Source: Candidatus Bathyarchaeota archaeon
GTDB taxonomy: Archaea > Thermoproteota > Bathyarchaeia > Bathyarchaeales > DTEX01
Direction: 5' to 3'
DNA: 33,627 bases
Assembly: GCA_018397055.1 (NCBI GenBank)
Contig: JAGTQS010000006.1
Coordinates: forward strand, 1 to 33,627
Of this stretch, positions 3,672-25,182 are shown in pieces. The position numbers and the translations under genes are program-made. A model generated the notes under the pieces. That model saw only the letters and a list, made by a program, of their open reading frames with translations. It had not been told where the DNA came from and did not search any database. Every line of letters begins with the position of its first letter. Within the stretch, counting starts at the first letter, position 1.

Positions 3672-5846
3672 TTACTTTTCCTTAGATACCTTTTTCACAA
3701 ATGAGATACATTTTGCCTTAAATGTTTCGTAGCTGCTTGAAAACTCGTCCATCGTCTTTATAACCGCTCCGAAGCTTTGCCATTGCGAAGGCAAGATTCC
3801 CCCAGAACCATACTGTTCAACGCTGGGTATTTTGGCTTTTTTCATGATTTCAGACTGAGGCTTTGTTATTTCATAGAATTTATTCACTTCATTTTTTAAG
3901 TCGTTTGTGTCCCTTGTTAATCTTTGAAGAATTGCGGAATCAAGAGGCTTAAGGATAGATTCGAGGCAGTTTTCAATTTTGAAGCTTGGCTCTGAACACG
4001 CCGACAAAACTGCTGTTTGGTGGTTGGGAAATTCGGTGTGCGTCATGTTTGTCTCTGCTAAGGTGAGAAGCGTTTCTTTCGTATGTCTCTTGGAAGCTGG
4101 AAGAATGTCAATTCCAAACAGCACTTCCTTGGCTTGTTCTTCGGCTAAGTCATACCTAGCTTGCAAATATAATATCCATTTCGGCTTGTTTTGAGGACTA
4201 AAGAAAATTTCGTAAACTTTTTTGGTTACTAATATGCCGCAGTATCCGATGTCGTTCTCCAAAGTTTCCAGATAAGCCTTAACCCTTTCTTCCGAGTTGT
4301 ATGGCACACCATGTTTTGCAAGGAAGCGAATCATCTGCTCCTTATTTAATGGACGAAGGTATTTTCGGCTACTAACAACTATTATTTTTTCAGCCAGAGT
4401 TTTTTTCTGAGAGACCTCGTCCCATGCTCCTAGCTCCTCAGCAAGGTTTTTCAGAGCGACATCTTTGTCAGATGCTTTTTCTATTGCTTTCTTCACAAGC
4501 GCCTCAGCCTGAACCTCTCTTACATGGTCGTCAAGTCTTCCACCCATGTTTGTCTCGTACACGGTTGTTAAAGGAATGCCCTTCTTAACTGCCTCAGCCC
4601 TTCCTTCTATCTTTGCAAGGATCAGTTCAACCATTTGTGGAACAGTAAAAGTAACCGTGTTGTTGGTGCCGATTCCTAGACTTTCAAGTTTTCTTGTAAT
4701 GTCAATTGAAGCTGGGGAACTTCCTGCAACCTTGAAAACTATATTCGGTCTTCCCCTCTCCACGTTTTCTGAGTATCCCCACAACAGCCAAGCATCATAG
4801 AGTCTAAGAAACTCCTGAGCGTCCAAGTAAAATTTTAGAGCGTAGTTTACACTTTCTTCGTAGTTATCGGCAATAAACGGATTAAGCTGAAGGCTTATCA
4901 TTCCGTGAACCATGTTCGAGGCGACTGCAATAGGTCGAAAAACTGTTAGATTCCGCCAGATGCTGACCTCGGTTGCGTAAGCAGTTATCTCGTCTCCATG
5001 TTTCCCAGGGTCATTTAAGAGTTCTGGATGCTGCTTGATTATGGCTTTAAAATCGGGACATAGATCTTCGCCGTTATAACCTTCCCACATTGAGGGGTCA
5101 TCCTCATAGGCTACTGCAGCTAAAGACGGATTGGTTGTTACTTGAACAAAGCCCACATGGCGTAGAAATCTAAGTCCCAAAGCGTAGTCATTTCCAAACT
5201 TGCATGCCCCCCTCATGCTAAGTTTATAATATACATTGTTCTGAATCTGTTGTTCAGACAACCTTAAGAAGGATCCTAAAACATCCTTGTTGTCAAGTTC
5301 TTTTTCAATTTTCTCCGCAATATGTGCAACCATTGCCCCTGGGGGTCTGTATACAACCTTCATTACAGTTTTCATTTCTGTTAAGGTTCTTTCGACCACT
5401 GCTTTGGCGATTGACGCTTCATTTTGGTCATCATTATAGGTGCTGCTTCTTTCAAGAGCCTCTAACCCCTTCAAAGCCGATGTCAACAAAGAGAGAGAAC
5501 TTTTTACCTCATTTTCAGAAAAACCCATAATCTTTTTTTCAAACCCAATCAGGTTTAGAGCTAGGTTTAACAGAGTGTCGTAAATTCTTGCGCATTGAAC
5601 AACCTTTTCCTCGTGTTTCTTGTCAAGAACAGCCTTATTGAATGCAAGGTTAAGTTTACGGATTGTGTCGCCCAATGTTTCTTCCAAGTGTCCCCTCATT
5701 TCGGGATGAAGAATGTGGTCTGCGGCGAGTTTAGAGTACCCTTTCAGAGTCAACCTAACAATATGGTCTGAGTGGTCTAAGCTCAACGGGAAACTTTCCA
5801 ATTCATCCGGTTTTGTCTGCATCAATGTGTCTGAAACTTTTTTCAA
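3672..5846 (-). CDS. Transaldolase-like protein with long N- and C-terminal extensions
   Basis: VTTNPSLAAVAYE, GISLQLNPFIAD and IVFKVAGSSPASIDITRKLESLGIGTNNTVTFTV (candidate Schiff-base Lys) in a 724-aa protein. Confidence 0.75.
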   Translation of the reverse strand: MKKVSDTLMQTKPDELESFPLSLDHSDHIVRLTLKGYSKLAADHILHPEMRGHLEETLGDTIRKLNLAFNKAVLDKKHEEKVVQCARIYDTLLNLALNLIGFEKKIMGFSENEVKSSLSLLTSALKGLEALERSSTYNDDQNEASIAKAVVERTLTEMKTVMKVVYRPPGAMVAHIAEKIEKELDNKDVLGSFLRLSEQQIQNNVYYKLSMRGACKFGNDYALGLRFLRHVGFVQVTTNPSLAAVAYEDDPSMWEGYNGEDLCPDFKAIIKQHPELLNDPGKHGDEITAYATEVSIWRNLTVFRPIAVASNMVHGMISLQLNPFIADNYEESVNYALKFYLDAQEFLRLYDAWLLWGYSENVERGRPNIVFKVAGSSPASIDITRKLESLGIGTNNTVTFTVPQMVELILAKIEGRAEAVKKGIPLTTVYETNMGGRLDDHVREVQAEALVKKAIEKASDKDVALKNLAEELGAWDEVSQKKTLAEKIIVVSSRKYLRPLNKEQMIRFLAKHGVPYNSEERVKAYLETLENDIGYCGILVTKKVYEIFFSPQNKPKWILYLQARYDLAEEQAKEVLFGIDILPASKRHTKETLLTLAETNMTHTEFPNHQTAVLSACSEPSFKIENCLESILKPLDSAILQRLTRDTNDLKNEVNKFYEITKPQSEIMKKAKIPSVEQYGSGGILPSQWQSFGAVIKTMDEFSSSYETFKAKCISFVKKVSKEK

Positions 5847-22870: not shown

Positions 22871-23548
22871 ATGGAAGTCAACTTGATTAACTATACAAGG
22901 AATGGGATAGAAACCATCGCAACTGCAGTTCGAACATCAGGTCCCTTTTTTGACCAAATGGACGACAGGAAACTTGTAGGGTACATGGTGGAGCACGACT
23001 ATGGTTCAACACTGGAACATGTCTACTTCACTTTTGAGCTAAAAGACATCTCAGTTGCCTTAACCAGAGAACTATTAGAACACAGAATTGCCTCTCACAC
23101 TGCAAAATCAACTAGATACGCGAGTCAAGCAGACGAGATGCCCGTGTACATTCCACCCGACATTAAAGGCCCTTTAAGACAAAAAGTAATCATGCACATG
23201 GAAAAAACGCATGAACTATACAAGCAGATAGAAAAGGAAGCATCCAAAGAATCAGCTCGCTACGTTCTGCCACTGGCCTTAAAATGCACGTACATATGGA
23301 CGATCAACTGCCGTTCTTTACTCAATTTCTTAAGATTAAGACTATGCAAAAACGCTGCCCCAGAAATTAGGTTTATGGCTACAAAAATAAAAGAAGAGGT
23401 CACCAAAATCTACCCCGAAATATTCGAAACCGTCGGGTGCAGAGGCAGCCAATGGGGAATATGCCCAGAACCTAAAAAAAGGAGTTGCGGAAAGTACCCG
23501 ACGAAAAAAGAAATAATGCAACTCTATAATAAAAAAAGTAATGAATAA
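22871..23548 (+). CDS. thyX: FAD-dependent thymidylate synthase ThyX-like
   Basis: LVGYMVEHDYGSTLEHVYFTFELKDISVALTRELLEHRIASHTAKSTRYA and GICPEPKKRSCGKYP tail; ThyX motif reads EHR rather than RHR. Confidence 0.82.
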   Translation: MEVNLINYTRNGIETIATAVRTSGPFFDQMDDRKLVGYMVEHDYGSTLEHVYFTFELKDISVALTRELLEHRIASHTAKSTRYASQADEMPVYIPPDIKGPLRQKVIMHMEKTHELYKQIEKEASKESARYVLPLALKCTYIWTINCRSLLNFLRLRLCKNAAPEIRFMATKIKEEVTKIYPEIFETVGCRGSQWGICPEPKKRSCGKYPTKKEIMQLYNKKSNE

Positions 23549-23675: not shown

Positions 23676-23789
23676 TGGCGGGCCCGGGGGGATTTGAACC
23701 CCCGCCCTCAGGCTTTCTCCGCCTAAGCTGGCTCCGAAGGCTTACGCGAAATTTTTTCACTGCGCCATATCCAGCTAGGCTACGGGCCC
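23676..23789 (-). tRNA. tRNA-Arg(TCG), two introns, genome-encoded CCA
   Basis: Exons 23789-23760, 23741-23730, 23710-23676 give GGGCCCG TA GCCT AGCTGGATA TGGC G CAGGC CTTCGGA GCCTG AGGGC GGGGG TTCAAAT CCCCC CGGGCCC G CCA (77 nt); introns 23759-23742 (18 nt) and 23729-23711 (19 nt). Confidence 0.85.
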
Positions 23790-23868: not shown

Positions 23869-25182
23869 TTACTTGATTTTTATTTTTTTGAAGTCGCCAT
23901 CGTATGCGGCTTTGAGAATGCTTTTCATGTACTTGTCTATGTCTCCCCTGTCTACGTCTAAGGGCGTCGGCATGTTCTGCAACTTCATTTTAAGCTGAGG
24001 ATCTTTTGCTGCTTCCAGCATTCTCTTAATGTGCAATGTTGTCGCTCCTGCTTCTTTAAGGGTTGTCGGAAAGCCAAAAGACCTGTTAAAATCTATCATC
24101 GCCTTAGCTACGATTTCACCTAATTTTCTGTCTTCGAATCTTTCCAGATCAAGATTTTTCGCAATTATTCCAGCTTCTTGGAATATTGTGCCAAGGATCC
24201 TAAGTTGTTCCTGAATGTTTGATGTAAAGAACACCGTGTAATACGGATTAAGAACTGCGCACGCTCTGCCATGGGAAAGAACATCCACAAGCGAGAAACT
24301 TCCAAGATGAGGACCACTTGTGCCCCCTATCATTATTGAATAACCGCCTAGATCAGTCCCAAGCCCAAGTGCAACTCTCGCTTCAACATCGTCTTTAAGT
24401 GCAGCCCTAAGATTTTTTACAATCAAACTTATTCCAAGCGATGCCACAGCCTTTGATTTTTCGAAGTAATCTTTGCCACCAGCCCCCATAAAAACCTCCC
24501 AACAATGTGCGATTCCATCCATCGCGCCATCAAGGGTCAGGTTCTCCGGCGAACCAACTGTCACACCGTAATCAAACAATGCCTTCTTAGGCGTGATTGC
24601 GTCGTCCACAATCAGTTTCTTTTGGCCCAACACGGGATCCGTTATGTTAGAGTATTTTGTCAAATGCGCAGCAGAGCTTGAGGCAGCCTGGACCGCAATA
24701 ACGGGTATAATGTCTTTGTTTGTGGCAGTCTTCATTTTAGTAACATTTCCAGTCCCAAAAAAGGGATCAATCGAGCCTGCAATGCTCCAATCGACATTTA
24801 ATACCTTTGAAATCTCTGAAGGCTCAAAAACCGTCAAAAAGCTCGCAGCCTTAACAGCATCAATTGTGCTTCCTCCTCCAAAAGCTATAATGCTGTCTGG
24901 TTTAAATCTGACAACCTGAAATGTTATCCTATACAAGTCTTCACGCGGACAGTTTGGTCTTGCGCCCAAAACAGTGTTGAAAGAGATACCTGTCTTCCTT
25001 AGAGACTCTGAAATTTTCTGCATAAATTTCTGTGCCCATTTCGAACTGCTTCCCACCAGAAGCGCATTGTGGCCAAAGGTTTTCGCCATCTCTCCAACTT
25101 TGTCGAGGACTTCTAATCCAAAGACGTAAAACTCTTTTTTCCATTCTCTTAACAGTCTTTGAGCTTCATCCTTTTCGTCCAT
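23869..25182 (-). CDS. Iron-containing alcohol dehydrogenase
   Basis: SIIAFGGGSTIDAVKAASF, LTLDGAMDGIAHCWE, HLGSFSLVDVLSHGRACAVL. Confidence 0.9.
   Translation of the reverse strand: MDEKDEAQRLLREWKKEFYVFGLEVLDKVGEMAKTFGHNALLVGSSSKWAQKFMQKISESLRKTGISFNTVLGARPNCPREDLYRITFQVVRFKPDSIIAFGGGSTIDAVKAASFLTVFEPSEISKVLNVDWSIAGSIDPFFGTGNVTKMKTATNKDIIPVIAVQAASSSAAHLTKYSNITDPVLGQKKLIVDDAITPKKALFDYGVTVGSPENLTLDGAMDGIAHCWEVFMGAGGKDYFEKSKAVASLGISLIVKNLRAALKDDVEARVALGLGTDLGGYSIMIGGTSGPHLGSFSLVDVLSHGRACAVLNPYYTVFFTSNIQEQLRILGTIFQEAGIIAKNLDLERFEDRKLGEIVAKAMIDFNRSFGFPTTLKEAGATTLHIKRMLEAAKDPQLKMKLQNMPTPLDVDRGDIDKYMKSILKAAYDGDFKKIKIK

Follow-up and report, generated by a model that had tools for sequence, protein, structure and literature searches.

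Which tRNA, if any, is encoded between positions 23676 and 23789 of the window (the whole analysed stretch of 33,627 nucleotides), and at which sites is it interrupted? We regard the locus, with a probability of about 0.93, as a predicted functional gene for tRNA-Arg(UCG), the only one detected in the genome, containing two protein-spliced archaeal introns: one of 18 nt at position 29/30 and one of 19 nt at position 37/38. A sequence-only reading had already arrived at two inserts of these lengths, at this tRNA identity and at an archaeon related to the Thermoproteota; the organism is a Bathyarchaeon, and of its proposals only the placement of the second intron had to be revised. The computation supports the gene structure, the intron registers, the splice helices, conservation throughout the class and the presence of the enzymes in relatives; we infer transcription, cleavage and ligation of the tRNA, as well as the order in which its introns are removed.

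Gene structure

The gene is located on the minus strand (Table 1). When both inserts are removed, the product is called by ARAGORN as a 77-nt tRNA-Arg(tcg) ending in CCA, as the sequence-only reading had predicted, with a perfect five-base-pair anticodon stem (CAGGC/GCCTG). The remaining features of the cloverleaf are also in place, with a seven-base-pair acceptor stem, a T-arm, U33 and the anticodon UCG. When introns with strict bulge-helix-bulge (BHB) elements were enumerated blindly over the precursor and the products judged by ARAGORN, the top solution was the two-intron gene with anticodon TCG. A search for the exon-intron pattern gave a single match in the window and no match in 100 shuffles. 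The first exon is identical in the sister genome of the same genus (G001, Candidatus Bathyarchaeota JZ-2_2_bin_4.4, JAGTRI010000001.1), and many relatives contain CTTTA or CCTTTA at a distance from the tRNA 5' end comparable to that of the TATA-box-like element. The gene is flanked by a ThyX-like open reading frame (22871-23548, plus strand) and an alcohol-dehydrogenase-like one (23869-25182, minus strand), both named from motifs by eye.

Table 1. Features of the tRNA-Arg(UCG) locus, in window coordinates
Feature	Position	Strand	Remarks
TATA-box-like A/T-rich element, CTTTAAAAA	23809..23817	-	20-28 nt upstream of the tRNA 5' end; putative function, from sequence
tRNA-Arg(UCG) body	23789..23679	-	
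Exon 1 (tRNA positions 1-29)	23760..23789	-	5' acceptor strand, D-arm and 3 nt of the anticodon stem
Intron 1, TGAAAAAATTTCGCGTAA	23742..23759	-	18 nt; non-canonical site 29/30; single register; same site in 25 genomes
Exon 2 (positions 30-37), GCCTTCGG	23734..23741	-	anticodon TCG at 23737..23735
Intron 2, AGCCAGCTTAGGCGGAGAA	23715..23733	-	19 nt; canonical site 37/38; BHB in register +0 only; 37/38 in 21 genomes
Exon 3 (positions 38-73 and encoded CCA)	23676..23714	-	3' anticodon stem, variable loop, T-arm and 3' acceptor strand
CCA	23678..23676	-	

Several other tRNA genes of this genome appear to be interrupted. For the tRNA-Lys(CUU) gene (L022, G000:C29:10782-10911, minus strand), a pair of BHB introns is predicted, one of 30 nt at about 30/31 and one of 26 nt at 37/38; in Nanoarchaeum and some Staphylothermus, tRNA-Lys(CUU) is split at 30/31 (PMC4090602). 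In the tRNA-Arg(UCU) gene (L048, G000:C91, approximately 5107-5189, minus strand), a 31-nt intron with central helix CCCG/CGGG is predicted near 9/10 and another intron near 37/38; its spliced anticodon loop would be CCUCUAA, with a C instead of a U at position 33. Introns are also predicted in tRNA-Val(UAC) (L025, G000:C64:8961-9075, plus strand), one of 19 nt near 25/26 and one of 21 nt near 37/38. A further gene, resembling tRNA-His(GUG) (L047, G000:C92:13886-13941, minus strand), has an apparent insert in the D-arm, for which a strict BHB search gave no solution.

Splice elements of the two introns

Around intron 1, a central helix GCGC/GCGU with all four pairs formed is bordered by the bulges AG^U and AA^G, and the intron folds into an inner hairpin, GAAA-AAA-UUUC, closed by a four-base-pair inner helix (GAAA/UUUC). 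The insertion at 29/30 thus has a BHB-type splice element in its single register. The element is a relaxed version of the motif, because in the genus its outer helix consists of only one base pair, where the strict hBHBh' motif has at least two in both flanking helices. In the other relatives the outer helix contains three base pairs, and several of these lack the inner helix instead. The 29/30 introns of loci L028, L030, L031, L032, L034 and L039 are only 11-12 nt long, with at most one inner base pair, and their intron loop is closed almost directly by the central helix. Position 29/30 is listed among the non-canonical archaeal tRNA intron sites (PMC4090602), and intron 1 shares this site, the 3-4-3 geometry and the short length with the published non-canonical BHB introns. 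It differs from them in its bathyarchaeal host and in the short outer helix of the genus, to which the reduced or missing inner helix of the shortest introns in some relatives can be added.

Intron 2, in register +0, forms the full hBHBh' motif. The outer helix (CAGGC/GCCUG) has five base pairs once intron 1 has been removed, the central helix (CUUC/GGAG) has four pairs out of four and the inner helix (GCC/GGC) has three, with the 3-nt bulges GG^A and AA^A in between. Site, motif and the contribution of bases from the anticodon loop to the central helix are shared with canonical archaeal 37/38 introns; unlike in these, the outer helix is split here by another intron in the same anticodon stem. 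BHB-type elements, which the sequence-only reading had anticipated, are thus present at the exact registers of both introns.

The gene in other Bathyarchaeia and alternative readings

The orthologous gene was compared in 26 Bathyarchaeia genomes including the source, 21 from its own order and five from outside it, using a pattern search that took in genes with well-conserved exons. Both introns are present in 21 genomes, the 29/30 intron alone in four (G024, G215, G218 and G219) and neither in one (G031); within the same search, none of the 26 has the 37/38 intron without the other. As four relatives carry intron 1 alone, the two introns are separable. The intronless ortholog, a 66.9-bit tRNA, has two additional bases in the D-loop and two substitutions relative to our spliced product. 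A loose pattern scan over the wider contig collection returned mostly chance bacterial matches.

Intron lengths vary from 11 to 32 nt at 29/30 and from 12 to 26 nt at 37/38, and the intron interiors have diverged, with the splice helices kept across the relatives. At the exact registers, 95 of 100 possible central pairs are formed at 29/30 and 82 of 84 at 37/38, while at most 66 and 63, respectively, remain when the 3' strand is displaced by one to three bases. In sets of 20 and 19 members, 76 of 80 and 74 of 76 central pairs are formed, against means of 24 and 40 for shuffled introns, counts that should not be read as probabilities because the species share ancestry, which the slid control retains. 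The inner helices score above all 3000 shuffles, and their base pairs differ between species.

Since AGCC is repeated at the ends of intron 2, the intron can slide over five registers, +0 to +4 from 37/38, its first letters being AGCCAGCTT at +0 and AGCTTAGG at +4 (41/42), and the spliced product is identical in all of them. The sequence-only reading had noticed this freedom and had picked +4, concluding that neither intron was at 37/38. The spliced product is equally compatible with that choice, which would place a second non-canonical intron in the 3' strand of the anticodon stem; the splice element is not, as no central or inner pair is formed at +4, against four central and three inner pairs at +0. 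Moreover, relatives in which intron 2 does not repeat (G002, G004, G006, G008 and G010 among them) permit only +0 or +0/+1. Two non-canonical introns are therefore very improbable; the earlier statement holds for intron 1 and fails for intron 2, for which the BHB element and the relatives with little or no freedom to slide both indicate the canonical site.

Could the locus instead have arisen by decay into a pseudogene or by misassembly, the two insertions being due to chance? Standard searches do miss it: ARAGORN makes no call on the unspliced gene at default settings, and Rfam has no tRNA match in the window when its threshold is applied, and a tRNA fragment of 18.6 bits as the sole match at a loose one. 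Yet the exons are intact, and the same two insertion sites with their conserved splice helices recur in many independently assembled genomes. A survey of Rfam-detected loci gave 27 further tRNA genes in the genome; none of them is a second tRNA-Arg(UCG), which the sequence-only reading had named as grounds for suspecting a pseudogene. We consider decay or misassembly slightly less probable still than the 41/42 placement. The lowest probability of all is given to a one-intron tRNA of other identity, such as the tRNA-Pro(CGG) with a 20-nt intron that is ARAGORN's best proposal once introns are allowed. A better fold with a single intron would have spoken against two introns, but this one has two mismatches in the anticodon stem, and the variable loop of its product, 94 nt long, is too large; the one-intron solutions of ARAGORN were rejected for their mismatched stems. 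In addition, the anticodon arm of the intronless relative is perfect and contains TCG, and a separate tRNA-Pro(CGG) gene exists elsewhere in the genome.

Splicing machinery, order of removal and significance

The broad-specificity splicing machinery that the sequence-only reading had invoked for tRNA-Arg(UCG) is present in relatives. Two EndA genes (PF01974) were found in 40 of the 43 relatives that are at least 90% complete. One kind matches the crenarchaeal enzyme, with the catalytic Tyr, His and Lys in all 22 relatives compared, the sister genome included; the same 22 have lysine 44 of the Crenarchaea-specific loop, and the loop of this kind of EndA carries lysine at the positions corresponding to 44 and 46 of A. 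pernix. These features are shared with the crenarchaeal (alpha-beta)2 splicing endonuclease (A. pernix, 3p1z). The second, EndA-like protein retains Tyr and Lys, and all 11 genomes compared have Thr, Pro or Ser at the position of its catalytic His (L046:1201-1794; relatives L091, L093 and L236-L243); in contrast to the crenarchaeal enzyme, this putative bathyarchaeal second subunit resembles the M. jannaschii EndA. RtcB was detected in 53 of the 61 genomes searched, and the sister genome contains the catalytic EndA, the second EndA and RtcB. In the source MAG, which is 87% complete, the second kind of EndA was found, but neither the catalytic kind nor RtcB; this is likely a matter of missing sequence. 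A lineage devoid of RtcB was considered and dropped, given its occurrence in the relatives.

The precursor would fold a BHB-type element around each intron, and an EndA-type endonuclease would cut 3' of the second base in each 3-nt bulge. Nucleotides 31-33 are common to both elements, and removal of intron 1 takes the outer helix around the 37/38 intron from two base pairs to five in 15 of the 19 genes with both introns. Because of this sharing, and because the outer helix is complete only without intron 1, the most likely order, judged from the sequences, is stepwise with the 29/30 intron first. Its excision would bring CAG next to GC and so complete the five-base-pair outer helix, after which the canonical intron would be cut out, with RtcB joining the exons. 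The order is not forced in every relative, since the other four of the 19 have four to five outer pairs even with intron 1 present. Minimum-energy and pair-probability folding recovered neither the BHB folds nor the mature cloverleaf; as these calculations misfold even the mature tRNA, in its unmodified form, folding energies are uninformative on the order. A further proposal, which we put forward tentatively and think rather unlikely to hold, is that the intron pair is obligatorily ordered in Bathyarchaeia, the 29/30 element competing for nucleotides 31-33 and the first excision switching the second on, and that the enzyme cutting the 11-12 nt introns without inner helix is an EndA in whose second subunit the catalytic His alone is missing.

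The combination of a canonical and a non-canonical intron in one tRNA gene has been published before (PMC4090602, PMC4033280), and stepwise removal of neighbouring archaeal introns has been described (PMC8450103). Among the multi-intron genes of the Thermoproteales, that for tRNA-Pro(UGG) of Pyrobaculum islandicum, with introns at 25/26, 37/38 and 56/57 (PMC4090602), likewise combines both kinds, although the tRNA, the combination of sites and the lineage differ from ours. In the open-access literature searched (subscription papers being outside its scope), we found no paper dealing with the tRNA introns of Bathyarchaeota or Bathyarchaeia. What is new is the documented bathyarchaeal case, with introns as short as 11-12 nt and a series of genes with zero, one or two introns.

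The finding leaves the known splicing mechanism unchanged. It adds an abundant class of uncultured archaea to those with catalogued multi-intron tRNA genes, and illustrates how a tRNA for an arginine codon can be missed by standard finders. The occurrence of zero, one or two introns in one orthologous tRNA provides a natural series for intron gain and loss and for the minimum size of an intron.
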